Shown here in pieces: positions 1,559 through 54,268 of a DNA stretch of 56,479 nucleotides. Source of the DNA: a virus. The notes beneath the pieces are model-generated. The model was given only the letters and a program-made list of their open reading frames with translations. It was not told where the DNA came from and searched no databases. The position numbers were made by a program, and so were the translations under genes. Numbering within the stretch: position 1 is the first letter of the stretch; the number at the start of each line of letters is the position of its first letter. The stretch is taken from positions 1-56,479 of IMG/VR virus record IMGVR_UViG_3300044730_001415; one strand, written 5' to 3'.

Positions 1559-1610
1559 GACACCTGGGTAGGTGTATAAACTGCCCGCTTTTCACACTGG
1601 GTATTGTTTT
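1559..1610 (+). terminator. putative terminator upstream of first micro-gene
   Basis: A perfect CACCT/AGGTG hairpin with GGGT loop (1561-1574) is followed by TGCCC...GGGTA and a TTGTTTTT tract at 1604-1610. This differs from the other cassettes of the array but occupies the same place, directly 5' of a 25-bp promoter. Confidence 0.45.
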
Positions 1611-1635
1611 TCGCATAAATAACATGGGGTATAAT
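1611..1635 (+). promoter_or_regulatory. conserved 25-bp phage promoter, copy 1
   Basis: Consensus element: TCGCA, an A/T-rich stretch, ACATGGGG, then TATAAT at 1630-1635. The same 25-bp layout recurs at least 14 further times in the window. A TTG-type -35 is not at a constant position, so the TCGCA block and the G-rich extension before the -10 are the conserved parts. Confidence 0.85.
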
Positions 1636-1660
1636 AGCAACACAACCGAAAGGACATCTA

Positions 1661-1906
1661 ATGAACAAGAAGTACATCCTCGGATTGTTGGTCACCGGAT
1701 TGGTGGCTGAAAGGATCACTCTGATTCGAGCGCACAAGCACTACTCCAGCGAGATCAACGACCTCAAGAAGGAGAACGAGGCCGCCATGATCGTCATTGA
1801 CGAGTTGTGCAACGTGCTCAACGACGACGACACCATCACCCACCCCGACGCGACCAACAGGTTCAAGGACCGTGTCAAGTTCAGGTGCATGACCACCAAC
1901 TGGTGA
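1661..1906 (+). CDS. small membrane-anchored protein (micro-gene 1)
   Basis: An 81-residue protein with an N-terminal hydrophobic helix (YILGLLVTGLVAERITLI) followed by a charged, helical segment (SSEINDLKKENEAAMIVIDEL) that may form a coiled coil. The ATG is preceded by CGAAAGGA. Codons are strongly C/G-ending compared with neighbouring genes, suggesting high expression. It is a monocistronic unit between a 25-bp promoter and a terminator/promoter cassette. Function unknown. Confidence 0.75.
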   Translation: MNKKYILGLLVTGLVAERITLIRAHKHYSSEINDLKKENEAAMIVIDELCNVLNDDDTITHPDATNRFKDRVKFRCMTTNW

Positions 1907-1912
1907 TGCCAC

Positions 1913-1950
1913 AAAGCCCGAAGCGCCCTAAACAAGCGCTAAGGGTTTTT
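1913..1950 (+). terminator. intrinsic terminator fused to promoter 2
   Basis: Two stacked helices: AAAGCCC pairs with GGGTTTT and, inside, AGCGC pairs with GCGCT around a CCTAAACAA loop, followed by a T tract. Other copies change the inner stem to AGCAC/GTGCT, a compensatory change. The T tract runs directly into the next promoter. Confidence 0.85.
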
Positions 1951-1953
1951 GTC

Positions 1954-1978
1954 TCGTATAAATAACATGGGGTATAAT
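1954..1978 (+). promoter_or_regulatory. conserved 25-bp phage promoter, copy 2
   Basis: TCGTA variant of the TCGCA block, ACATGGGG and TATAAT (1973-1978). A TTGTCT hexamer lies 18 bp upstream of the -10, formed by the end of the preceding terminator T tract, so terminator and possible -35 overlap. Confidence 0.85.
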
Positions 1979-2003
1979 GACAACTACTACGAGAGGAATT
2001 TTA

Positions 2004-2240
2004 ATGCCCCGAGCAACAACAGCAGTTTTCACAAACGAAATCGGAAACAGAATCTTGATGCATGTCGAGAAAGACTCCCGCAAAGGAATCACGATATCTG
2101 CAGTTGGCCCAACCAGCACTGTAGAACATACGTGGACCCCAAAGGAAGTCTCAGTACTCATCAAACTTCTTTCCGATGTTGGAGTGAAGCAATGCGATTT
2201 GATGACTCAGAAGCGGAAGAAATTTCGATTCAAGAAGTGA
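2004..2240 (+). CDS. hypothetical protein (micro-gene 2)
   Basis: A 78-residue basic protein, start chosen at the ATG preceded by GAGAGGA. The sequence MPRATTAVFTNEIGNRILMH leads into a segment HTWTPKEVSVLIKLLSDVG and ends KKRKKFRFKK-like (basic tail). Length and basic C-terminus would fit a nucleic-acid-binding protein, but this is only inference. Monocistronic, flanked by cassettes. Confidence 0.7.
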   Translation: MPRATTAVFTNEIGNRILMHVEKDSRKGITISAVGPTSTVEHTWTPKEVSVLIKLLSDVGVKQCDLMTQKRKKFRFKK

Positions 2241-2245
2241 TCCAC

Positions 2246-2283
2246 AAAGCCCGAAGCACCCTAAACAAGTGCTAAGGGTTTTT
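2246..2283 (+). terminator. intrinsic terminator fused to promoter 3
   Basis: Same two-helix design as at 1913, with inner stem AGCAC/GTGCT instead of AGCGC/GCGCT (covariation) and the outer AAAGCCC/GGGTTT stem ending in a T tract. Confidence 0.85.
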
Positions 2284-2286
2284 GCC

Positions 2287-2311
2287 TCGCAAAAATAACA
2301 TGGGGTATAAC
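2287..2311 (+). promoter_or_regulatory. conserved 25-bp phage promoter, copy 3
   Basis: TCGCA, ACATGGGG and TATAAC (2306-2311) in the standard spacing; only the last base of the -10 differs from consensus. Confidence 0.8.
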
Positions 2312-2335
2312 GACCCGCTACACAGGAGGAATCAA

Positions 2336-2485
2336 GTGAAAACATTCAGAAAAGCAGGCGAAATCGTGGTAGAGAACATGACCACCGAGGAGAGTACAAA
2401 GCTGTACGTCCTTGGTGCCGTGGTCTACACCCTCGCGCTCGCCGGGCTGATCATGATCGTGAAGAAGATCATCCGCCGCAAGTAG
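2336..2485 (+). CDS. 49-residue single-pass membrane protein (micro-gene 3)
   Basis: GTG start behind a strong AGGAGG site. After about 20 charged residues there is one hydrophobic helix (LYVLGAVVYTLALAGLIMIV) and a basic tail KKIIRRK, so the C-terminus should be cytoplasmic. GC-rich codons. Monocistronic between cassettes. Function unknown. Confidence 0.75.
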   Translation: MKTFRKAGEIVVENMTTEESTKLYVLGAVVYTLALAGLIMIVKKIIRRK

Positions 2486-2492
2486 TACCCAC

Positions 2493-2530
2493 AAAGCCCG
2501 AGGCACCGTAAACAAGTGCTAAGGGTTTTT
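2493..2530 (+). terminator. intrinsic terminator fused to promoter 4
   Basis: Copy of the two-helix terminator: outer AAAGCCC/GGGTTT, inner GGCAC/GTGCT with G-T closing, loop CGTAAACAA, then a T tract. Confidence 0.85.
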
Positions 2531-2533
2531 GCT

Positions 2534-2558
2534 TCGCAGGAATCACATGGGGTATAAT
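2534..2558 (+). promoter_or_regulatory. conserved 25-bp phage promoter, copy 4
   Basis: TCGCA, CACATGGGG and TATAAT (2553-2558) with the standard spacing, directly after the terminator T tract. Confidence 0.85.
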
Positions 2559-2583
2559 AGACCCCACAGAAAGGATGTCCCCA

Positions 2584-2748
2584 ATGGACATTGTACTGAA
2601 CCTCATCGAAGCATCGGTCCTCAACCCGACCACGACAACAGGCCAGACCTTCCTCGTCGCACTATTTGCGATGTGGATGGGAAGCTGCATCAACGTGAAC
2701 AGGAGGGCGACCGCCCGCCGAAAGAGCCAGAGCAACACCCCCAAGTAA
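2584..2748 (+). CDS. 54-residue membrane protein (micro-gene 4)
   Basis: Start at the ATG 9 bases after GAAAGGA; another in-frame ATG at 2575 is too close to that site. The product has a hydrophobic segment (TGQTFLVALFAMWMGSCI) and a basic, serine-rich tail (NRRATARRKSQ). Monocistronic. No family recognised. Confidence 0.7.
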   Translation: MDIVLNLIEASVLNPTTTTGQTFLVALFAMWMGSCINVNRRATARRKSQSNTPK

Positions 2749-2762
2749 TCCCTCTCAGAGTC

Positions 2763-2801
2763 AAAACAACGCCCCGCGATAATATCAAAGGGTATTGTTT
2801 T
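2763..2801 (+). terminator. variant terminator upstream of promoter 5
   Basis: AAAACAA (2763-2769) pairs with TTGTTTT (2795-2801) and CCC with GGG inside. The sequence differs from the other cassettes, but the place and the GGGTATTGTTTTT end match the element before promoter 1. Confidence 0.6.
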
Positions 2802-2826
2802 TCGCAGGAAATACATGGAGTATAAT
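2802..2826 (+). promoter_or_regulatory. conserved 25-bp phage promoter, copy 5
   Basis: TCGCA, TACATGGAG and TATAAT (2821-2826); one G in the G-rich block is A. Confidence 0.8.
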
Positions 2827-2855
2827 GAAGTAAACCCAACAGATAAGGACCCACC

Positions 2856-3122
2856 ATGGATCATTATATCGACGACTTTACCGCCCGTTACCATGTAACA
2901 CAACTCAAGAAGGATGAGCTAGCCGCTCTTCAACGCAAGTTGGATCCCGCTAACTTCGACGGAGCAGATACACATCTCTCAATCGAAGACAAATACAAGA
3001 TTCGAACCATGCTGCAGAAGACCCTGGCCGACCTCGCGCTTCTCGAGAGTGAGCTCATGGAGCCCACGGGCGACAAGAAGCCGAAGAAGATCATTTGGAG
3101 GTTCTACTATCGAAAGAAGTAG
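2856..3122 (+). CDS. hypothetical helical protein (micro-gene 5)
   Basis: An 88-residue charged protein with two predicted amphipathic helices (VTQLKKDELAALQRKLD and IRTMLQKTLADLALLESEL) and a basic end (PKKIIWRFYYRKK). No membrane segment. The ATG follows AAGGACC. Monocistronic, flanked by cassettes; function unknown. Confidence 0.7.
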   Translation: MDHYIDDFTARYHVTQLKKDELAALQRKLDPANFDGADTHLSIEDKYKIRTMLQKTLADLALLESELMEPTGDKKPKKIIWRFYYRKK

Positions 3123-3130
3123 ATCTTCAA

Positions 3131-3168
3131 AAAGCCCGAAGCGCCCTAAACAAGTGCTAAGGGTTTTT
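3131..3168 (+). terminator. intrinsic terminator fused to promoter 6
   Basis: Outer AAAGCCC/GGGTTTT stem and inner AGCGC/GTGCT stem (one G-T pair), loop CCTAAACAA, then T tract. Confidence 0.85.
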
Positions 3169-3171
3169 GCC

Positions 3172-3196
3172 TCGCATAAATAACATGGGGTATAAT
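3172..3196 (+). promoter_or_regulatory. conserved 25-bp phage promoter, copy 6
   Basis: Perfect copy: TCGCA, ACATGGGG, TATAAT at 3191-3196. Confidence 0.85.
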
Positions 3197-3231
3197 GAAG
3201 TAGTAATCTCAATCAAACAAAGGAGAATGCC

Positions 3232-3429
3232 ATGCAGAACGACGTCACCGAGACCGTCGCTGATACCTTCATCGAGATCACCCCCAAAGGCGCGATCGCC
3301 ACTGCCCTCATGGGTGTCGGCGCGTACGTCGTGGGGAGGACCTTGGTGCGTGGTATCCGCGCTCGGAAGCCGAAGACCTCGCCCCTGCCCCCGCCCGCTC
3401 CAGTGATCATCGAGACCACTGCCCGATAG
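3232..3429 (+). CDS. 65-residue membrane protein (micro-gene 6)
   Basis: ATG after AAAGGAG. A weakly hydrophobic helix (GAIATALMGVGAYVVGRTLV) is followed by a basic stretch (RGIRARKPK) and a proline-rich tail. GC-rich codons. Monocistronic between cassettes. Function unknown. Confidence 0.7.
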   Translation: MQNDVTETVADTFIEITPKGAIATALMGVGAYVVGRTLVRGIRARKPKTSPLPPPAPVIIETTAR

Positions 3430-3440
3430 ACCGAAAGGTC

Positions 3441-3476
3441 AAGCCCGAAGCACCGTAACAAGTGCTAAGGGTTTTT
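3441..3476 (+). terminator. intrinsic terminator fused to promoter 7
   Basis: Same two-helix terminator, slightly shorter loop (CGTAACAA); inner stem GCAC/GTGC, outer stem AAGCCC/GGGTTT. Confidence 0.85.
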
Positions 3477-3479
3477 GCC

Positions 3480-3504
3480 TCGCATAAATAACATGGGTTA
3501 TAAT
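3480..3504 (+). promoter_or_regulatory. conserved 25-bp phage promoter, copy 7
   Basis: TCGCA, ACATGGGT and TATAAT (3499-3504). Confidence 0.85.
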
Positions 3505-3535
3505 GAAGCCCCATCTAACCCAATAAGGAGACCCC

Positions 3536-3688
3536 ATGCTCAAGAAGAAGACCGCAGACCTCACCGTCGGTGAGTCACTGGTGTTCGGAGTCGTGACAAC
3601 CATCGTCATGACCGCGATCACCGTTGGCCCGCTCATGGTGACCGGATACCTGGTCGACCGCAAGCAGAAGAAGTCCAAGAAGGCGTGA
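3536..3688 (+). CDS. 50-residue membrane protein (micro-gene 7)
   Basis: ATG after AAGGAG. The product has a lysine-rich start (MLKKKTADL), one hydrophobic helix (LVFGVVTTIVMTAITVGPLM) and a lysine-rich end (RKQKKSKKA). GC-rich codons. Last of the seven monocistronic micro-genes. Confidence 0.75.
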   Translation: MLKKKTADLTVGESLVFGVVTTIVMTAITVGPLMVTGYLVDRKQKKSKKA

Positions 3689-3697
3689 CCCGCTTCA

Positions 3698-3736
3698 CAA
3701 AGCCCTCGGCACCGTAACAAGTGCTAAGGGTTTTTT
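3698..3736 (+). terminator. intrinsic terminator fused to promoter 8
   Basis: AAAGCCC/GGGTTTT outer stem, GGCAC/GTGCT inner stem, six-T tract. Confidence 0.85.
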
Positions 3737-3738
3737 CG

Positions 3739-3763
3739 TCGCACCCGTAACTAGTACTATATT
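3739..3763 (+). promoter_or_regulatory. degenerate 25-bp promoter, copy 8
   Basis: TCGCA and the 25-bp spacing are kept, but the ACATGGGG block is changed and the -10 is TATATT (3758-3763). It probably drives the 3776 gene more weakly. Confidence 0.5.
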
Positions 3764-3775
3764 TTTTGGAGATAC

Positions 3776-4114
3776 ATGAGGCCCACAAAAATAAACCCGC
3801 CCCGCCTACACCCAATTGAACAAACATTAGTTGTCTTGATGAGCAGACCAAACAAATGGATTGTCGTTGATGTGTGGGAACACAAACCGCTCGCTGCCCC
3901 GTCAAATCGCCACGCGTATGTCTCTTTAACGGCGTTAGTTGCTGCTCTACGTCGACGAGGCGCCGAGACCCGAGTAAAGCGATTTGGTAGCGTGATCGTC
4001 GCTAAAGCTCGATGGACTCATCCGGTTCCAGTAGACGTTCCGGAGTTTGAAGGCCTTCGACCAAAAGATTCCACAATTGACGAATGGCTTGAGGAGGACG
4101 GACGCCTTGAATAG
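3776..4114 (+). CDS. hypothetical protein with terminase-like 41-bp segment
   Basis: A 112-residue basic protein; start ATG follows TTTTGGAG. Most of it is unrecognised, but its C-terminal GLRPKDSTIDEW matches GLRPRVSTIDEW of the large terminase Walker B region in this window, and the DNA is 38/41 identical (4050-4090 versus 18464-18504). The stop precedes the next gene by 16 bp. An internal ATG at 3839 is an alternative start. Confidence 0.6.
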   Translation: MRPTKINPPRLHPIEQTLVVLMSRPNKWIVVDVWEHKPLAAPSNRHAYVSLTALVAALRRRGAETRVKRFGSVIVAKARWTHPVPVDVPEFEGLRPKDSTIDEWLEEDGRLE

Positions 4115-6852: not shown

Positions 6853-6877
6853 TTGCAAGAATAACACTGGGTATAAT
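6853..6877 (+). promoter_or_regulatory. 25-bp promoter, copy 9
   Basis: TTGCA instead of TCGCA, AACACTGGG and TATAAT at 6872-6877. Adjacent to an AGTGAGTATTA element. Probably drives the nuclease/RNA polymerase-like operon. Confidence 0.75.
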
Positions 6878-7226: not shown

Positions 7227-7755
7227 ACATGCCCTTTTGAGCCCAAGCAGTTATCACTGGATTAATTATAACGAACAAAAGCTAACGGCTCGTTACTATT
7301 CGGCGGCACAAGCAGCACGCGGCGTTGCTTTACACGAATATGCGCAAACTGCGATAAAGCTAGGAATAAAACAACCAAGAAGCAGTAAGACACTGTATGC
7401 TTACATCAATGATGCAATAAATTATAAGATGAAACCAGAACAAGCGCTCTATTACTCAGACAACTGCTTTGGTACCGCAGATGCAATAAGCTTCCGTAAT
7501 GGTAAGCTTAGAATTCACGATTTAAAAACAGGAATATCAAAAACATCCGAACATCAACTTGAGATCTATGCGGCGTTGTTTTGTCTTGAATATGGCGTGT
7601 CTCCGTTTGAGATAGACATAGAACTTCGCATCTATCAAAACAATGACGTATCTATATTTGTTGCAGACCCCGAAGAAATTCTAACAATCATGAATACGAT
7701 TATTGATTTCGATCGTCACGTTGAATACTTAAAGGAGAACGACCTTGATTATTGA
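7192..7755 (+). CDS. Cas4/RecB-like PD-(D/E)XK nuclease
   Basis: A 187-residue protein with ALHEYAQ early (RGVALHEYAQTA), FGTADAI, HDLKTG (D-x-K) and QLEIYAALF, the order of the RecB/Cas4 nuclease core. No cysteine cluster for an Fe-S site is evident (only two cysteines), unlike true Cas4. Likely a recombination or DNA-end-processing exonuclease. It overlaps both neighbours, so the three genes VRR-NUC, this one and the RNA polymerase-like gene form one operon. Confidence 0.75.
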   Translation: MNFNTHSALRGKHALLSPSSYHWINYNEQKLTARYYSAAQAARGVALHEYAQTAIKLGIKQPRSSKTLYAYINDAINYKMKPEQALYYSDNCFGTADAISFRNGKLRIHDLKTGISKTSEHQLEIYAALFCLEYGVSPFEIDIELRIYQNNDVSIFVADPEEILTIMNTIIDFDRHVEYLKENDLDY

Positions 7756-10489
7756 TGAGGATGAATACAAAGACTATTTGGCTCACTACGGGATTTTGCG
7801 TAAGTCTGGACGTTACCCTTGGGGTTCTGGCGGAGAAGAAATACACTATACAGAGTTTCTCAGCACTGTTGATTCTTTAAAGAAACAAGGGCTTTCGGAG
7901 ACTGCTATTGCGGCAGGCCTTGGTATGAACACGTCCGAGCTTCGAGCTCGAAAGTCAATTGCTAAGAACGAACAAAAACAAGCACGTATCGATCAGGCTT
8001 GGGGCTTAAAAGATAAGGGCGTAAGCACGTCTGAAATCGGTAGGATTATGGGTATTCCAGAATCTACTGTTCGAACGTTACTCGTCCCCGGCGAGAAAGA
8101 CAAGTTGGACCGACTTCAGTCAGTTACCAACATGTTGAAAAAAGAGGTCGATCAAAAAAAGTATCTCGACGTAGGCGATAACACTTGGTTGCATCAAGGC
8201 GTATCAGAAACAACCTGGCGCAATGCGGTTGCCTTGGCTAGAGAAGAAGGCTACACAAAACATTACGTTCGAGTGCTTCAGCTTGGTACCGGAAAAGAAA
8301 CTACAGTTAAAGTGTTAGCCGGCCCTGGAGTGAAAACGTCAGAAGTCAGAAAAAATCAAGACCTCATTCGACAAGTTCAGAATTTCTCTGATGACGGCGG
8401 TAGATCTTTCTTTGGGTTGCTGCCTCCGCTCAAAATAGATCCAAAACGAGTGGACGTAGTTTATAAAGAACAAGGCGGAGATAAACTTGACGGCGTAATA
8501 TATGTGCGCCAAGGCGTTAAAGATGTTTCTCTGGGCGATGCTCGCTACGCACAAGTTCGAATCGCGGTTGGTGATGGGCATTATATGAAGGGTATGGCTA
8601 TGTATAAAGAGGATCTGCCCAAGGGCATTGATCTTCAATTCAACACAAATAAAAGCGATACCGGAAATAAACTTGATGCACTTAAACCAGTAAAGCGTAC
8701 GGGAGAAGGCGACGTTGATGAGGCTAACCCGTTCGGTTCTATAGTTCGACAAATCGTGGCTAGAGAATCAGATGGTAAGCAGTATTTAACTGGATATGGC
8801 AAGAACCTGACTGATGGTACAGAAAAAGTGATCTCTGCCATGAACATTGTGCATGAAGAAGGAAACTGGTCGAACTGGTCAGACACCCTGTCTAAACAAG
8901 TACTATCTAAGCAAAGCACAAAATTAGCAAAAACACAGTTGGACATGACGTATGAGAGTAAGGAAGCAGAATTCAAAGAAATCGCTAAGCTTACTAACCC
9001 GGCCGTTCGAAAGCTACTTTTAGAAAAGCTAGCTGATGATGTTGATTCTTCAGCAGTACATTTGAAGGCCGCTGCGTTAAAGGGTCAAGGGACTCACGTC
9101 ATTCTTCCGATTGGCTCTATGCCCCCGAGTCAAGTTTATGCGCCGAATTACCTTGATGGAACAAAAGTCGTGTTAATTCGATTCCCGCATGGTGGCACTT
9201 TTGAGATTCCAGAATTGACGGTGAACAACAAGCAACCCGAAGCAAAGCGATTGCTGAAGGACGCACGAGATGCGATTGGCATTCATCACTCCGTTGCCGA
9301 AAGGTTGTCTGGCGCAGACTTCGATGGCGACACGGTACTCGTAATACCAAATGACGGCCCTGTTTCTAAAAGAATAGATACAACACGAGCACTGGAAGAC
9401 TTACAAGGGTTTGACCCAAGAAGTTCTTATCGTCGTTATGAGGGCATGAAAGTTATGACCGCACGCGAAAAAGGACTCGAGATGGGTCTCGTGTCAAACT
9501 TAATTACTGACATGACTTTACGAGGCGCGTCTAGAAGCGAACTAGCTAGAGCAATTAAACACTCAATGGTAGTCATTGATGCTGAGAAACACGAACTAAA
9601 CTATAAGCAATCGGCGATAGACAATGGCATTCCCGCATTAAAAGCTAAGTATCAAGGTGGACCAACCGCCGGTGCATCCACTCTAATCTCGTTATCAAAC
9701 CAACAGCTTAGAGTCCCCGACCTCAAACCAAGGCGGGCGCAAGATGGTGGACCAATAGACAAAGCTACGGGCAAAAGGGTATTTGATCCGGCATCTGCTG
9801 AAACTTTTGTTAATAGCAAAGGAAAACAAAACGTAAGAACAAGGCAGTCGGTTAGGCTCGCGGAGACCGACGATGCGTTTACTTTAATTAAAAATACCCC
9901 CACCCAAATTGAAAAGGTATACGCTGAGCATTCTAACAAACTAAAGAACCTTGCTAATGAAATCAGATTAGAGCAAATCAATACCCCCAATGTGGTGAGG
10001 TCGCCATCTGCAGCCAAAGTTTATAAGAAAGAAGTAGATTCCCTGACAGCTAAGCTTCGCATAGCTGAAAGAAACGCCCCCCTTGAAAGGCAGGCTCAGA
10101 TCTTTGCTAATGCTATTGTTCGTATGCGTCAAGCAGCCAATCCTGATATGGACAAAGAAACATTAAAGAAGGTTAAAACCCAGGCCCTAAATCAAGCCCG
10201 TACCCGAACAGGTGCAGGCAAGGATAAAATAGTCATCACTCCAGACGAGTGGAATGCCATTCAACAGGGTGCCGTGTCCAACACAAAACTCAATGAGATT
10301 CTAAGACAATCTGACATTGACGTAGTGCGACAGTTTGCTACACCAGTAAACAAAAAGATTATGACTTCTAATAAAGTTGTAAGAGCCAAGCAAATGTTGG
10401 CCAGTGGCTACACAAGAGCCGAAGTCGCAGCAAAGTTTGGTATCTCTTTAACAACACTAGACACTGCAGTAAACGAGTCCGAGGCTTAG
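7745..10489 (+). CDS. putative single-chain double-psi beta-barrel RNA polymerase
   Basis: A 914-residue protein with a TTG start 8 bases after AAGGAG. Residues 525-529 are DFDGD in the context HHSVAERLSGADFDGDTV, the metal-binding signature of the beta' subunit of cellular RNA polymerases (NADFDGD) and of YonO-type phage enzymes; the stretch before it (VVLIRFPHGG...) fits the barrel. A lysine-bearing segment near residues 285-305 (HYMKGMAMYKEDLP) may be the beta-like barrel. Helix-turn-helix stretches lie near residues 50-115 (LSETAIAAGLGM, VSTSEIGRIMGIPESTV) and at the C-terminus (TRAEVAAKFGI). The extreme N-terminus holds a LAHYG motif shared with two virion-module proteins. Polymerase activity is inferred, not shown. 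Confidence 0.65.
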   Translation: MIIDEDEYKDYLAHYGILRKSGRYPWGSGGEEIHYTEFLSTVDSLKKQGLSETAIAAGLGMNTSELRARKSIAKNEQKQARIDQAWGLKDKGVSTSEIGRIMGIPESTVRTLLVPGEKDKLDRLQSVTNMLKKEVDQKKYLDVGDNTWLHQGVSETTWRNAVALAREEGYTKHYVRVLQLGTGKETTVKVLAGPGVKTSEVRKNQDLIRQVQNFSDDGGRSFFGLLPPLKIDPKRVDVVYKEQGGDKLDGVIYVRQGVKDVSLGDARYAQVRIAVGDGHYMKGMAMYKEDLPKGIDLQFNTNKSDTGNKLDALKPVKRTGEGDVDEANPFGSIVRQIVARESDGKQYLTGYGKNLTDGTEKVISAMNIVHEEGNWSNWSDTLSKQVLSKQSTKLAKTQLDMTYESKEAEFKEIAKLTNPAVRKLLLEKLADDVDSSAVHLKAAALKGQGTHVILPIGSMPPSQVYAPNYLDGTKVVLIRFPHGGTFEIPELTVNNKQPEAKRLLKDARDAIGIHHSVAERLSGADFDGDTVLVIPNDGPVSKRIDTTRALEDLQGFDPRSSYRRYEGMKVMTAREKGLEMGLVSNLITDMTLRGASRSELARAIKHSMVVIDAEKHELNYKQSAIDNGIPALKAKYQGGPTAGASTLISLSNQQLRVPDLKPRRAQDGGPIDKATGKRVFDPASAETFVNSKGKQNVRTRQSVRLAETDDAFTLIKNTPTQIEKVYAEHSNKLKNLANEIRLEQINTPNVVRSPSAAKVYKKEVDSLTAKLRIAERNAPLERQAQIFANAIVRMRQAANPDMDKETLKKVKTQALNQARTRTGAGKDKIVITPDEWNAIQQGAVSNTKLNEILRQSDIDVVRQFATPVNKKIMTSNKVVRAKQMLASGYTRAEVAAKFGISLTTLDTAVNESEA

Positions 10490-38773: not shown

Positions 38774-38798
38774 TCGCAATATAAACATGGGCTATAAT
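38774..38798 (+). promoter_or_regulatory. 25-bp promoter, copy 10
   Basis: TCGCA, AACATGGGC and TATAAT at 38793-38798. Confidence 0.8.
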
Positions 38799-38819: not shown

Positions 38820-39071
38820 ATGTTTAACCGACAACAGAACACGAAGATACTGCGGGAGCAAGTATTCGAATCAATGAGGGGCATGACCCCGACCGATCCC
38901 CGTTACGCCGAACTGGCCGAGCTTCTGGTGCTACTTGACAAGAACAAAGTATCACCGGACACGAAGCTGCTCGTCGCGGCGGGGTTGGCCCAGGTCTTGC
39001 TCATCCTGACATTCGAGCACGCCCACCCTGTAATGTCCAAGGCGTTCAATTTCGTCTTGAAGCCGAGATAA
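38820..39071 (+). CDS. conserved phage membrane-associated protein
   Basis: An 83-residue protein; the block MTPTDPRYAELAELLVLLDKNKVSPDTKL followed by a hydrophobic helix (LLVAAGLAQVLLILTFEHA) and NFVLKPR recurs in many actinophages. One membrane segment. Driven by its own 25-bp promoter and closed by a terminator; function unknown. Confidence 0.75.
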   Translation: MFNRQQNTKILREQVFESMRGMTPTDPRYAELAELLVLLDKNKVSPDTKLLVAAGLAQVLLILTFEHAHPVMSKAFNFVLKPR

Positions 39072-39200: not shown

Positions 39201-39225
39201 TCGCAAAAAACACATGGGGTATAAT
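39201..39225 (+). promoter_or_regulatory. 25-bp promoter, copy 12
   Basis: TCGCA, ACATGGGG and TATAAT at 39220-39225. Confidence 0.85.
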
Positions 39226-39259: not shown

Positions 39260-39382
39260 GTGAAGAGGAATCGTCCATATGAATTCAAGAACTTTCTCGT
39301 CGATGTCATCGGAATGGCATTGACGGGTTGCCTCTGGATCATCTGGGTGGTAATCCGCGAAGCCCAGGCTTGGCGTAAGTAA
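39260..39382 (+). CDS. 40-residue membrane protein
   Basis: GTG start after AAAGGAG. The product begins VKRNRPYEFKNF (initiator Met) and has one hydrophobic helix (LVDVIGMALTGCLWIIWVVI) plus a short tail EAQAWRK. Monocistronic, like the 1.6-3.7 kb micro-genes, and closed by the same terminator type. Confidence 0.7.
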   Translation: MKRNRPYEFKNFLVDVIGMALTGCLWIIWVVIREAQAWRK

Positions 39383-39392
39383 CAACTACCCC

Positions 39393-39430
39393 AAAGCCCT
39401 CGGCACTGTAACAAGTGCTAAGGGTTTTTA
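39393..39430 (+). terminator. two-helix terminator fused to promoter 13
   Basis: AAAGCCC/GGGTTTT outer stem, GGCAC/GTGCT inner stem, loop with TGTAACAA, T tract; same design as the 1.9-3.7 kb copies. Confidence 0.85.
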
Positions 39431-39432
39431 CC

Positions 39433-39457
39433 TCGCAAAAATTACACGGCCTATAGT
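39433..39457 (+). promoter_or_regulatory. 25-bp promoter, variant class (copy 13)
   Basis: TCGCA is kept, but the block before the -10 is TTACACGGCC instead of AACATGGGG; the -10 is TATAGT (39452-39457). The same variant block occurs only at 50293, and both copies precede a structured RNA. Confidence 0.75.
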
Positions 39458-39462
39458 GAGAA

Positions 39463-39580
39463 AAAGACAAGACACGAAGCGTAGGTGAAAGACCTACCTG
39501 TCTGGCGCGGAAGCTAAGCCGCTAATTACGAGTTTTCGTTGGACCGTAAGCCCGAGTTTTCTCACGTCTTATTTTTTTTT
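39463..39580 (+). ncRNA. structured small RNA or leader upstream of DUF6353 gene
   Basis: No ORF is convincing here. Nested stems are visible: AAGAC near the start pairs with GTCTT before the T tract; AGACA pairs with TGTCT around a perfect GTAGGT/ACCTAC hairpin with GAAAG loop; GCGG pairs with CCGC; TTACG pairs with CGTAA. GAGAAAA and TTTTCTC can also pair. A nine-T tract ends the unit at 39572-39580. It may be a stable small RNA or an attenuating leader of the gene at 39605. Confidence 0.65.
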
Positions 39581-41431: not shown

Positions 41432-41456
41432 TCGCAGTAAAAACACGCTGTATAAT
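41432..41456 (+). promoter_or_regulatory. 25-bp promoter, copy 14
   Basis: TCGCA, AACACGCTG and TATAAT at 41451-41456. Confidence 0.75.
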
Positions 41457-50292: not shown

Positions 50293-50317
50293 TCGCAGAA
50301 ATTACACGGCCTATAAT
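50293..50317 (+). promoter_or_regulatory. 25-bp promoter, variant class (copy 15)
   Basis: TCGCA, then TTACACGGCC as at 39433, and TATAAT at 50312-50317. A hairpin RNA starts immediately downstream. Confidence 0.75.
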
Positions 50318-50321
50318 GAAG

Positions 50322-50390
50322 GAGACGGACTGTACGTAAGTCGATACAAATTAATTTGTATTGCAGTACAGTCCGTCTCTTTTTTATTTC
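50322..50390 (+). ncRNA. short hairpin RNA with built-in terminator
   Basis: A perfect 14-bp stem (GAGACGGACTGTAC, 50322-50335, with 50366-50379) encloses an 18-bp palindrome (50344-50361, ATACAAATT/AATTTGTAT) and ends in TTTTTTATTT. Only about five bases separate it from the -10 element, so the transcript would be about 65 nt of almost pure hairpin. It is either a small RNA or an attenuator for the gene at 50409. Confidence 0.75.
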
Positions 50391-51397: not shown

Positions 51398-51406
51398 TAA
51401 TGGTTC

Positions 51407-51490
51407 GGAAGCTAGCATGGTGCCAGATGTGACAAACCACTTGAGTTGTCAAAGAACAACATCTGATGGGTTCGATTCCCTAAGCTTCCA
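51407..51490 (+). ncRNA. tRNA-like structure, not a canonical tRNA
   Basis: A 7-bp acceptor-like stem (GGAAGCT with AGCTTCC, then A) and a T-arm-like GGGTTCGATTCCC are clear. The middle is not a normal tRNA: CAGATGT pairs with ACATCTG and encloses GACAA/TTGTC, giving an extended arm, and no standard D-stem is found. A 7-nt anticodon loop is possible only with a bulge and without U33. It could be a decayed tRNA, a tRNA mimic or part of the large RNA downstream. Confidence 0.55.
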
Positions 51491-51623: not shown

Positions 51624-51836
51624 ATGAAGCAAATTGTCCAAGACACGCTGGTGTACATCGTTGAGTTTGAGCAGCTTCCAAAACTCCCGATCGCCGCCAA
51701 TGATGAAAGTGAAGTTCCGTACGCAATGGCTCTTCAAAACGCCATTGAAGTTGGCATCATAACCAAGGGTGGAAAGTACGGAATTCACATAAACCCAAAC
51801 TCGATGAGTTACATGGTTTATGCAATCGTCGACTGA
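51624..51836 (+). CDS. 70-residue hypothetical protein
   Basis: ATG after AAAGGAG. Sequence begins MKQIVQDTLVYIVEFEQLPK and ends YMVYAIVD. No family recognised. Its last codons lie within the first copy of the 44-nt repeat of the downstream RNA, which is odd for an ordinary gene/RNA border. Confidence 0.6.
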   Translation: MKQIVQDTLVYIVEFEQLPKLPIAANDESEVPYAMALQNAIEVGIITKGGKYGIHINPNSMSYMVYAIVD

Positions 51837-51870
51837 GCGACGTTAAATAGGCCTTTAGGCTCAGAGCGGT
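51827..51870 (+). repeat. 44-nt direct repeat, copy 1
   Basis: Begins CGTCGACTGAGCGACG (a CGTCG/CGACG hairpin) and also allows CTGAGC/GCTCAG pairing. Differs from copy 2 at one base. Confidence 0.9.
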
Positions 51871-52049
51871 ATCCCAGGAAGCTGTTCCGTATGACAGCGG
51901 GTTTTTAAGACGTAAAATCTCAACATAGGCAGGACTCTTTGCGTACACGTCGCGAAATCAGCATGAGAGAAAGTAACCGAGAAACTGACTTAACTACGTA
52001 AATTTAGAGTGCGCACTCTTTAGACTCGTAGCTGGGATACATAGGTAAC

Positions 52050-52093
52050 CGTCGACTGAGCGACGTTAAACAGGCCTTTAGGCTCAGAGCGGT
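52050..52093 (+). repeat. 44-nt direct repeat, copy 2
   Basis: One mismatch to copy 1 (C for T after GTTAAA). Heads the second module of the large RNA. Confidence 0.9.
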
Positions 52094-52555
52094 GTGGGTT
52101 GTGTTCGTAGCACATAAAGCAGATAAGAGGACCGACAGGCGTTAGCAAACGCTTATGGTTTCCGGCATATCATCCTTGGTTTGATATGTACGAGGGATAC
52201 TACGAGTTACCCCTGCTTCCCACACATAGGCATTCCGTATTCGTGTTGCAATGACGGTTGCAACAAATATGGTAAGATATTCTAGGTGTCCCTGGTATAG
52301 CGCCTAGAATCAAAGCCTTTATTATACCAGTAGGTGTCCAATACGCCTAAACCAAGCCGATCGCGACGGCAATTGGAACCGCGATACTCAGGCGGTATAG
52401 CTTACGGCGTTTCCCGTAAGACACCACTTTGGTGAAATGTAGAGCGGCGTCGACGGTACGCGGCAGCAGAAAACCGGAAGGGAGCCCCAGTCCCCTTATA
52501 CCGAAGCCTTTATGGCAACTGGCGGATCTGTTGAAAAACAGACAGAGTATTGAGC

Positions 52556-52906: not shown

Positions 52907-52919
52907 TCTCGCAAACCTG

Positions 52920-52940
52920 AGCATGTTTTAAAACTGCTCA
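52920..52940 (+). repeat. GAGCA hairpin element, copy 1
   Basis: GAGCA and TGCTC enclose GTTTTAAAAC, forming a hairpin of about nine pairs. Preceded by ACCT in all three copies. No T tract here, so it may be an RNA processing site. Confidence 0.75.
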
Positions 52941-52967
52941 CTCACCAACCACAACCAAGGAGGAGTA

Positions 52968-53165
52968 ATGAAAGCCATCAACATCAACCGGACAACTCAG
53001 CGTTATATTGCTGAGATGTACAACGAAGGGGTTGTGCCTCAGATAGAAGTGGAACCAACGTACTATATCGTTGTTGATGACGGTCCAAATCTGATCGTCG
53101 ACAGACACGAGTACGTTCGCGTCTGGAAAGACAAAGTCGACGTGGACATCATCGCGGTTGTCTGA
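52968..53165 (+). CDS. 65-residue hypothetical protein
   Basis: ATG after AAGGAGGAGTA, a strong site. KAININRTTQRYIAEMYNEG followed by VVDDGPNLIVDRHEYVRVWK; looks beta-rich. No family recognised. A GAGCA hairpin follows the stop. Confidence 0.65.
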   Translation: MKAININRTTQRYIAEMYNEGVVPQIEVEPTYYIVVDDGPNLIVDRHEYVRVWKDKVDVDIIAVV

Positions 53166-53176
53166 GGTTTTGGAAC

Positions 53177-53197
53177 CTGAGCATGTTTTAAAACTGC
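53177..53197 (+). terminator. GAGCA hairpin element, copy 2, with T tract
   Basis: Same 21-nt hairpin followed by TCTTTTTCTTG, so this copy can act as an intrinsic terminator. Confidence 0.7.
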
Positions 53198-53253
53198 TCT
53201 CTTTTTCTTGTTGCACTTAATACCTAATCAACCCAAACAGGAGGAAACACCCA

Positions 53254-53547
53254 ATGGCCATTCCCGAGAACTTCGTGTTCATGAAGAACCCGCCAACAAA
53301 TAAAAGAGGTACCAAGAGCAAGTACGAATCCATTGCGGACGCCTGCCGACGGCATCCCAACATGTGGACTGTCTTCAACACTGACGTCAGCTACGGAATG
53401 ACCACTGCCTTCAAAAAGCAGTTCCCCGGGTTCGAGTTCACGTCAAGAGCAAACCCGCCTGACGGCAACCGCACTACGGTGACCATCTACGGTCGATTTG
53501 TCGAAGAAGTCGACCTAGAACTGGAAGCGCTGCTGGACGAGGAATAA
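53254..53547 (+). CDS. hypothetical protein
   Basis: A 97-residue protein after CAGGAGGAAAC. It begins AIPENFVFMKNPPTNKRGTKSKYESIADACRRHP and has a C-terminal acidic end (LELEALLDEE). No family recognised. Followed by GAGCA hairpin copy 3. Confidence 0.65.
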   Translation: MAIPENFVFMKNPPTNKRGTKSKYESIADACRRHPNMWTVFNTDVSYGMTTAFKKQFPGFEFTSRANPPDGNRTTVTIYGRFVEEVDLELEALLDEE

Positions 53548-53560
53548 ATCTCGAAAACCT

Positions 53561-53581
53561 GAGCATGTTTTAAAACTGCTC
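53561..53581 (+). repeat. GAGCA hairpin element, copy 3
   Basis: Same 21-nt hairpin, ending five bases before tRNA-Ile. No T tract, so a processing role for the tRNA 5' end is plausible. Confidence 0.75.
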
Positions 53582-53585
53582 GCCC

Positions 53586-53659: not shown

Positions 53660-53671
53660 CTGAAAGTAAAA

Positions 53672-53734
53672 ATCGTGGGTGCTACGTCGACGAGACCGTA
53701 CAGTCTGGTAAAAAACAGTCAGGCCACCCACACA
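53672..53734 (+). ncRNA. 63-nt repeated structured element, copy A
   Basis: GTGGGTG at the start pairs with CACCCAC at the end; inside are CGTCGACG and AGAC/GTCT. It lies between tRNA-Ile and the gene at 53753 and is 62/63 identical to copy B at 54206. It could be a leader, a stable RNA or a processing unit. Confidence 0.7.
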
Positions 53735-54205: not shown

Positions 54206-54268
54206 ATCGTGGGTGCTACGTCGACGAGACCGTACAGTCTGGTAAAAAACAGTCAGACCACCCACACA
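54206..54268 (+). ncRNA. 63-nt repeated structured element, copy B
   Basis: 62/63 identical to copy A, with the single change (G to A) at position 51 of the element. Directly followed by the stem-loop at 54267 that ends at tRNA-Thr. Confidence 0.7.

Follow-up and report, generated by a model that had tools for sequence, protein, structure and literature searches.

Between 1.6 and 3.7 kb of the window (the whole stretch of viral DNA analyzed here, 56,479 nucleotides of IMG/VR record IMGVR_UViG_3300044730_001415), there are seven ORFs of 81, 78, 49, 54, 88, 65, and 50 aa, each 24-35 nt downstream of a TATAAT hexamer and with a Shine-Dalgarno-like sequence (Table 1). The original prediction placed each of these small genes (49-88 aa) behind a terminator and a 25-bp promoter-like repeat, and this is confirmed by the ORFs, the folds, and the repeat search. 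Its view that five of the seven products are membrane-anchored is fair as a hydropathy estimate: a hydrophobic stretch is present in genes 1, 3, 4, 6, and 7 (Kyte-Doolittle mean 1.36-2.33, 19-residue window) and absent by the same measure from genes 2 and 5. The C/G-ending codons it noted are found in five genes (GC3 0.77-0.89 against a genome median of 0.44) and less strongly in gene 5 (0.64), but not in gene 2 (0.49). High GC3 was rejected as a sign of strong expression in general, being present here, weak in the Gordonia phage Vardy (p 0.016), and absent in five other phages. The micro-proteins have no match to a family of known function in Pfam, PHROGs, or tblastn searches. The idea that the array serves strong early expression of proteins for host takeover is not supported. 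Genes 5 and 7 have no match among cultured phages, gene 2 has no IMG/VR relative by the method used, and when the first 6 kb were compared with cultured phages by megablast, nothing matched.

Table 1. Positions of the cassette elements and related features in the window (mismatch, mismatch search; matrix, weight matrix; fold, predicted RNA fold).
Feature	Position	Strand	Evidence and remarks
Type-B terminator before gene 1	1578..1610	+	Ends GGGTATTGTTTT, adjoins promoter 1; fold of 1559-1611, -13.1 kcal/mol
Promoter 1	1611..1635	+	TCGCATAAATAACATGGGGTATAAT; mismatch, matrix
Gene 1	1661..1906	+	81 aa; N-terminal hydrophobic segment; GC3 0.89
Type-A terminator after gene 1	1913..1950	+	Two-helix fold, -16.5 kcal/mol
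Promoter 2	1954..1978	+	Mismatch, matrix
Gene 2	2004..2240	+	78 aa; soluble; GC3 0.49; weak match to phrog_12635 (family without assigned function)
Type-A terminator after gene 2	2246..2283	+	Fold
Promoter 3	2287..2311	+	Mismatch, matrix
Gene 3	2336..2485	+	49 aa; GTG start; one hydrophobic segment; basic C-terminus
Type-A terminator after gene 3	2493..2530	+	Fold
Promoter 4	2534..2558	+	Mismatch, matrix
Gene 4	2584..2748	+	54 aa; hydrophobic segment; basic tail
Type-B terminator after gene 4	2763..2801	+	Ends GGGTATTGTTTT; fold
Promoter 5	2802..2826	+	Mismatch, matrix; recombinant joint
Gene 5	2856..3122	+	88 aa; soluble; basic C-terminus; GC3 0.64
Type-A terminator after gene 5	3131..3168	+	Fold
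Promoter 6	3172..3196	+	Mismatch, matrix
Gene 6	3232..3429	+	65 aa; hydrophobic segment; Pro-rich tail
Type-A terminator after gene 6	3441..3476	+	Fold
Promoter 7	3480..3504	+	Mismatch, matrix
Gene 7	3536..3688	+	50 aa; hydrophobic segment; basic tail
Type-A terminator after gene 7, last of array	3699..3736	+	Fold
Decayed promoter copy	3739..3763	+	TCGCA-N14-TATATT, without ACA core; under matrix threshold
Gene 8	3776..4114	+	112 aa; GC3 0.44 (ordinary); preceded by decayed promoter copy
Promoter of same class	6853..6877	+	892 bp upstream of phage RNA polymerase ORF; position kept in most relatives
Candidate QDE-1/YonO-like single-chain RNA polymerase	7745..10489	+	914 aa; DFDGD at residue 525
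Promoter, outlying mini-array	38774..38798	+	Mismatch, matrix
83-aa gene	38820..39071	+	Hydrophobic segment; phrog_5818 (family without assigned function)
Promoter, cassette missing in relative G001	39201..39225	+	Matrix
40-aa membrane micro-gene	39260..39382	+	GTG start
Type-A terminator, main-array family	39393..39429	+	Fold, comparison
Promoter, structured RNA cassette	39433..39457	+	Matrix
Structured non-coding RNA	39457..39578	+	Covarying family without Rfam match
Promoter of same class	41432..41456	+	Upstream of genes at 41.5 kb; matrix
Promoter, hairpin RNA cassette	50293..50317	+	Matrix
Hairpin RNA	50318..50386	+	-35.8 kcal/mol; identical in both near relatives

The repeat has the consensus TCGCA-N6-ACA-N5-TATAAT-GAGA, and no conserved -35 element is found at its sites. 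Searching for TCGCANNAATAACATGGGGTATAAT with up to three mismatches yields 10 matches in the window, all on the + strand (0 in 100 shuffles). With a weight matrix, the genome has 13 sites on the forward strand and none on the reverse, namely all promoters of Table 1 except the decayed copy. The array had been drawn as ending at position 3765; seven units are indeed located there, but further units occur at 38.77-39.58, 41.43, and 50.29 kb, in addition to the decayed copy before gene 8. The cassettes had been described as micro-genes, which holds for the protein genes, but some carry structured RNAs.

The array has eight predicted terminators, six of type A and two of type B. The type-A copies (n=6) fold into two stacked helices of -15 to -17 kcal/mol, end in T5-6, and mostly stop 3 nt ahead of TCGCA. 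A boundary that is “always the same” is thus found at the six type-A joints, but those before genes 1 and 5 carry the other terminator. That terminator and promoter are physically fused is supported by the folds and by the coordinates of the joints. The inner stem was said to covary: 99% of cells are paired in 13 copies, but a double change occurs in only one pair. Since 8 of the 12 pairs are invariant and 150 of 500 shuffles score as well, this covariation is too weak as proof of terminator structure. Judging from sequence comparison, the better structural argument is that unrelated stems occupy the same place in other phages. Homogenized terminators were rejected as a general feature, since they are clear only in the window clade. 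A terminator-like hairpin lies at most 70 nt upstream in 175 of 456 distinct promoter sites (24 in shuffled sequence), with the T run beginning a median of 8 nt ahead of TCGCA. In this wider promoter set, a directly upstream hairpin is detectable in only about 40% of sites.

Joints of this kind are common to cultured phages of Gordonia, Arthrobacter, Streptomyces, Curtobacterium, and Microbacterium, and their terminator stems are unrelated. The motif occurs in at least 120 IMG/VR stretches (reversed pattern, 0), and its sites are all co-directional. The window virus is an actinobacteriophage, and the same layout appears throughout a large group of actinobacterial viruses. When related phages are compared, cassettes are gained or lost and the joints are present, as the original prediction required; the gene 2 cassette, for instance, is missing in relative G001. 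Seven joints were scored. Two events, B and F, are noisy mosaics and are left out of the count, leaving five clean gains or losses in three phage lineages, each with its crossover inside the joint. The informative sites that match to the left and right of the crossover number 35/35 and 21/21 (event A), 31/31 and 28/30 (C), 32/32 and 23/23 (D), 39/40 and 7/7 (E), and 79/79 and 38/39 (G). The left part of promoter 5 matches the promoter of a 20-aa micropeptide in a relative (35/35), and its right part matches that relative's gene-5 promoter (21/21). These events support the suggestion that the array grows by recombination at its repeated joints.

RNA cassettes, called non-coding by a simple rule, start and stop exactly at joint elements. 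In the family of the RNA at 39457-39578, 29 of 35 pairs show double changes (0/500 shuffles), and the RNA in every case lies directly behind TCGCA-N6-ACA-N5-TATAAT. This segment has no Rfam match at the gathering threshold, and allowing E up to 5 adds nothing but weak overlaps on the opposite strand (snoZ267, wcaG). Of 79 dissimilar RNA cassettes, 36 can pair the 6 nt that follow TATAAT with their 3' end, the criterion being five or more Watson-Crick pairs with the 12 nt preceding the T run; with shuffled partners the mean is 13.3 and the maximum 21. The same count is 0 for the bases immediately upstream of TATAAT and 7 for positions +7 to +12. Positions +1 and +2 are purines in all of 115 promoter sites, and +7 is mostly C in cultured phages. 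Given the pairing with RNA 3' ends, transcription would start at the G directly behind TATAAT, which does not fit a host sigma-70 promoter and suggests a QDE-1/YonO-like phage polymerase. Two other options, a -35 element within the T run and a MotA-like activator at -30, were set aside when the start-site evidence made a phage polymerase likelier.

The candidate for this polymerase is the 914-aa protein. Its DFDGD motif is invariant in 22 orthologues except for the F (90% or more), and its AF2 model (pTM 0.59) has QDE-1 as best match (E 1.8e-8). The protein thus appears to have both the motif and the two-barrel polymerase fold of QDE-1/YonO-like enzymes, the TM-scores to QDE-1 being low (about 0.3). 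In most of 31 relatives, a promoter of the same class lies about 0.9 kb upstream of the polymerase ORF, 23 of them scoring above all shuffles. Sigma region 2 was not found in the genome, and a T7-type polymerase search gave no match there, its control likewise matching nowhere. The single-chain polymerase of the phage, rather than host sigma-70 holoenzyme, probably reads the promoter; array expression would then come after, and not before, the polymerase is made. With such a promoter ahead of the polymerase operon, the first round would need host transcription or injected polymerase.

We infer transcription, termination, start site, and polymerase identity from sequence comparison, on which all promoter, terminator, and start-site claims are based, and other readings must be weighed. 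The window and its metagenomic relative were each assembled from metagenomes, where near-identical joints are easily misassembled, and the indels between them might be artefacts of short repeats. This is hardly credible, as cultured Arthrobacter and Gordonia phages that were isolated separately show the same type of event, again with the crossover in the joint, and the joints are only about 65 bp. Typical reads are longer than that. Another very unlikely reading is that the repeats serve chiefly in recombination, replication, or RNA processing, in a largely polycistronic array whose resemblance to terminators and promoters would be secondary. Crossovers do occur in the repeats and all sites point the same way; however, the hairpin-plus-T-run arrangement is kept while the stems differ between phages, the T run keeps its short distance to TCGCA, and the RNA genes are bounded exactly by the elements.

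A more serious contender, though still an unlikely one, is that host sigma-70 holoenzyme reads both the array and the polymerase operon from ordinary early promoters, with TCGCA and ACA as accessory or activator contacts, and that the phage polymerase serves late genes. The TATAAT of the repeat matches the host -10 hexamer, a related motif in Gordonia cluster DJ phages was interpreted as a sigma-70 -10 (PMC9671010), a site upstream of the polymerase operon suits host-driven first expression, and YonO, the studied relative, transcribes late genes (PMC5467207). Yet the sites appear to have neither a -35 or extended -10 element nor a start 6-8 nt beyond the -10. The first six bases beyond TATAAT pair and co-vary with RNA 3' ends, although host polymerase would leave them untranscribed; the +1/+2 purines are fixed, C is dominant at +7, and the motif is nearly missing from 84,980 bacterial and archaeal genomes (one actinobacterial match).

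The explanation we favor, and consider fairly probable, is that of insulated one-gene cassettes exchanged at their joints, with a promoter read by the phage single-chain polymerase. Each cassette would consist of a promoter, a short leader, a micro-gene or small structured RNA, and an intrinsic terminator. As this terminator adjoins the next promoter, adding or removing a cassette would leave its neighbours' transcription unaltered. Homologous recombination within the joint (terminator plus promoter) would add or remove whole cassettes, which would account for close relatives that retain the joints but differ in gene content. TCGCA-N6-ACA-N5-TATAAT would be a phage-specific promoter, with transcripts beginning directly after TATAAT at G(A), and the 914-aa DFDGD protein would probably read it; one copy of the promoter lies upstream of that protein's own operon. 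A wider proposal, to which we give about an even chance, is that this sequence, with its start at GAGA, is a QDE-1/YonO-like polymerase promoter driving dozens of exchangeable gene and RNA cassettes, including a new structured RNA family, across a large actinophage lineage. A region of orphan genes that many cultured actinophages share thus becomes a defined cassette system, and since its recombination joint is mapped, gain and loss can be traced base by base in laboratory-grown phages. If the start site is right, the phage polymerase class of YonO and QDE-1 gains a multi-copy candidate promoter; a covarying RNA family without Rfam match, travelling as a cassette, is added.

Promoter early stem-loop (PeSL) elements of T4-like phages were reportedly described by Arbiol et al. 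in 2010 and Comeau et al. in 2014, and fused promoter-terminator cassettes are already known from them and from the Vardy motif. According to other papers on these elements, composite promoter-terminators lie between small ORFs in regions rich in small genes without annotated function, and cassette shuffling by recombination is proposed (PMC4503421, PMC3950731). The joints described here share the fused stem-loop between small ORFs and, with five clean mosaics, the bounding of gene gain and loss by repeated elements. Phages, sequence, and promoter type are unrelated, the present promoter having no -35; here, too, crossovers within the joint are located to the base, and structured RNAs are among the cassettes. 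The window virus does not belong with the T4 PeSL phages either, its relatives being Gordonia, Arthrobacter, and Streptomyces phages, and Vardy a siphovirus. The host-takeover module of SPO1 is also a cluster of small genes, mostly without recognized homology (PMC10531801), and the array resembles it as a gene cluster. YonO of SPbeta, a phage-encoded DFDGD-type polymerase of about 100 kDa, resembles the candidate, for which the fold search also led to QDE-1. YonO transcribes late genes as one operon from one site, with a promoter then undescribed (PMC5467207), whereas a multi-copy candidate promoter is proposed here.

Other similar systems belong to the same phage lineage. Arthrobacter AM/AU, Rhodococcus CC, and Gordonia DJ phages have arrays of small membrane-protein genes, the same kind of gene, also without assigned function; the available parts of the papers describe no regulatory joints (PMC5513430, PMC13313380). 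Those arrays are placed there between tail/holin and primase genes, whereas the window clade has most of its array ahead of the helicase. For the cluster DJ phages Vardy and Conley, an intergenic motif of 50 or 43 bp was published as five copies and read as sigma-70 promoters by its -10 (PMC9671010, PMC10868162). It belongs to the same TATAAT motif family, with the same core, in gaps before small genes that often encode membrane proteins. These two papers report neither terminator fusion at the motif nor exchange of cassettes, and neither RNA cassettes nor a shifted start site. Both phages carry the joints found in the window, and in Vardy the weight matrix finds 8 motif sites.

The repeat that heads the cassettes of the main array (consensus TCGCA-N6-ACA-N5-TATAAT-GAGA) occurs in 10 copies in the window at up to three mismatches and in none of 100 shuffles, and a weight matrix finds 13 promoter sites on the forward strand and 0 on the reverse. 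This bears out the original prediction of seven micro-genes, each behind a terminator and a promoter repeat. The boundary had been thought always the same, which holds for the six type-A terminators, whose two stacked helices (about -15 to -17 kcal/mol) are followed by T5-6 and then, mostly after 3 nt, by TCGCA; the joints before genes 1 and 5 use another terminator. The supposed covariation of the inner stem is thin: it comes down to one base pair (GC, AU or GU), and in 13 copies it is not beyond shuffles. Five array proteins have a hydrophobic segment (Kyte-Doolittle), in line with the predicted membrane anchoring of five of the seven. The C/G-ending codons are confirmed for five to six genes, whose GC3 greatly exceeds the median for the genome (0.44), but not for gene 2, which is ordinary (0.49). 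Because the micro-proteins have no assigned function, a role in host takeover is a guess.

The array goes past the interval first given, with a decayed joint, a mini-array and single sites elsewhere. Its larger part lies upstream of the helicase; the smaller (38.7-39.6 kb) sits between tail genes and primase, the array position in cultured relatives.

Features of the window discussed in the text
Feature	Position	Strand	Details
Seven small ORFs	1.6-3.7 kb	+	each preceded by a copy of TCGCA..AATAACATGGGGTATAAT
Decayed joint	3739-3763		before an eighth gene
Single promoter sites	6853, 41432, 50293		weight matrix
Polymerase candidate	7745-10489		914 aa; DFDGD motif
Second mini-array	38.77-39.58 kb		83-aa gene, 40-aa gene, non-coding RNA
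Second RNA cassette	behind promoter 50293		hairpin
tRNA-like stretch	51405-51490		GGAAGCT ... GGTTCGATTCC ... AGCTTCCA
Two Pistol ribozymes	51827-51879, 52050-52112	same strand	about 170 nt between
Hairpin repeat	52918-53582		AACCTGAGCATGTTTTAAAACTGCTC, three copies
Repeat of ~60 bp	53670-53734, 54206-54268		ATCGTGGGTGCTACGTCGACGAGACC...; either side of 182-aa gene

Two cassettes of the window, that of gene 2 and a 40-aa one at 39.2 kb, are absent from the metagenomic relative G001, which in turn carries one for a 20-aa membrane micropeptide that the window does not have. That cassette is complete in G001 (L125:6967-7028), and its product is almost purely hydrophobic (MYIVAVILLCAIVQIVVDSK). 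The array had been suggested to grow by recombination at the repeats, and single-cassette differences between relatives were scored as mosaics, the single joint being set against both joints flanking the extra cassette in the other phage. Clean mosaics are seen in event A (left 35/35, right 21/21), event G (79/79, 38/39; crossover inside TTCGCAAAAAT), events C and D of the Arthrobacter phages Dynamite/Kardesai (31/31, 28/30) and Circum/Kardesai (32/32, 23/23), and event E of the Gordonia phages Conley/Petito (39/40, 7/7; crossover inside CCGCGTAGATTACATGG). Events B and F are noisy, and bigger replacements beyond the dense array have their breakpoints elsewhere than at joints. Cassettes are gained or lost at the joints, and each event can be read either way.

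The transcript region behind promoter 39433 is without an ORF. Homologues occur in environmental contigs and in the cultured Gordonia phages Petito, Conley and Perkunas, and a covariance model gives 20 matches. Double changes affect 29 of 35 pairs, a count that none of 500 shuffles and no slid control reaches, in an alignment fitted to the model; the starting MAFFT alignment already has 16 such pairs. The family begins -2 to +14 nt from the promoter end in all 19 matches checked. Rfam gives no family match at the gathering threshold, and its weak matches across the segment are on the opposite strand. Small RNA cassettes with the same promoter and tRNA-like acceptor and T-arm sequences lie in CapnMurica (L132, 11440-11831) and Vardy (L127, 17463-17680).

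Among 79 non-coding cassettes, counted once similar bodies were removed, 36 show pairing between the six bases that follow TATAAT and the bases just ahead of the T run; shuffling partners from cassette to cassette gives a mean of 13.3 and a maximum of 21, and the control with the six bases upstream gives 0 of 79. The longest helices start mostly at -2 to +2, and non-GAGA discriminators have matching 3' ends (e.g., GAGGAG/CTCCTC, GAAAGG/CCTTTC). In a set not chosen for GAGA, +1 and +2 are purines at 115/115 sites. This pairing and these purines are best explained, on comparative evidence, by a transcript that would begin directly after TATAAT. A sigma-70 -10 element does not permit a start immediately behind the hexamer.

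The window, a 56,479-base record of an uncultivated virus, has a primase/polymerase ~62% identical to those of Gordonia DJ phages and a helicase about 50-59% identical to those of Streptomyces, Curtobacterium, Arthrobacter and Gordonia phages. Across the region, identity to two IMG/VR relatives is 94-97%. The repeated joints, sought in related phages, are present in six cultured ones (Vardy, Scarif, Daddyjeff, Zeina, Damascus and CapnMurica), where a hairpin, a T run and TCGCA...ACA...TATAATGAGA separate many genes between tail/holin and primase. Sites chosen by TAYARTGAGA alone in seven cultured arrays carry TCGC in 94-100% and ACA in 94-100%, with no -35 conservation. The promoter pattern is found in at least 120 IMG/VR stretches (reversed pattern, 0) and in only six from 84,980 bacterial and archaeal genomes. 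Five of these six (L265-L268, L270) sit in Firmicutes, Bacteroidales or CPR metagenome bins, and are possibly phage contigs or chance matches. Over 456 distinct sites, a terminator-like hairpin lies ≤70 nt upstream in 175 (vs. 24 shuffled), and the ORF that follows has a median of 73 aa.

The DFDGD motif of the 914-aa protein is conserved in 22 orthologues. In Pfam the protein matches helix-turn-helix domains, including sigma-region-4-like ones, and weakly an RdRP; the best structural match of its AF2 model (pLDDT 77.9, pTM 0.59) is QDE-1 (E about 2e-8). A site of the array's promoter class lies ~0.9 kb upstream of the ORF in most relatives (in 23/31 above all shuffles). YonO, the studied phage member of the QDE-1-type class, transcribes late genes, its promoter being unknown in that study (PMC5467207). 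We propose that the array promoter is that of the candidate polymerase, whose first copy would come from host transcription from another promoter, or from injection.

Small membrane-gene arrays in these phage clusters are known (PMC5513430, PMC13313380), as is the TATAAT motif of DJ phages (PMC9671010, PMC10868162). The PeSL cassettes of T4-like phages are likewise known (cited through PMC4503421 and PMC3950731); the window's counterpart adds RNA cassettes and mapped crossovers. Relative to the literature outside subscription journals, these two and the start-site evidence are the additions made here.

Elsewhere in the window, the relative L001 is without the stretch holding the 182-aa gene and its ~60-bp repeats. 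The tRNA-like stretch is not called by ARAGORN on the window, and is kept in both near relatives. The hairpin repeat, another kind of repeated joint, lies between small genes of the tRNA block. The Pistol pair is arranged as though freeing a defined RNA, and similar sequences occur at loci L093, L143, L135 and L158.
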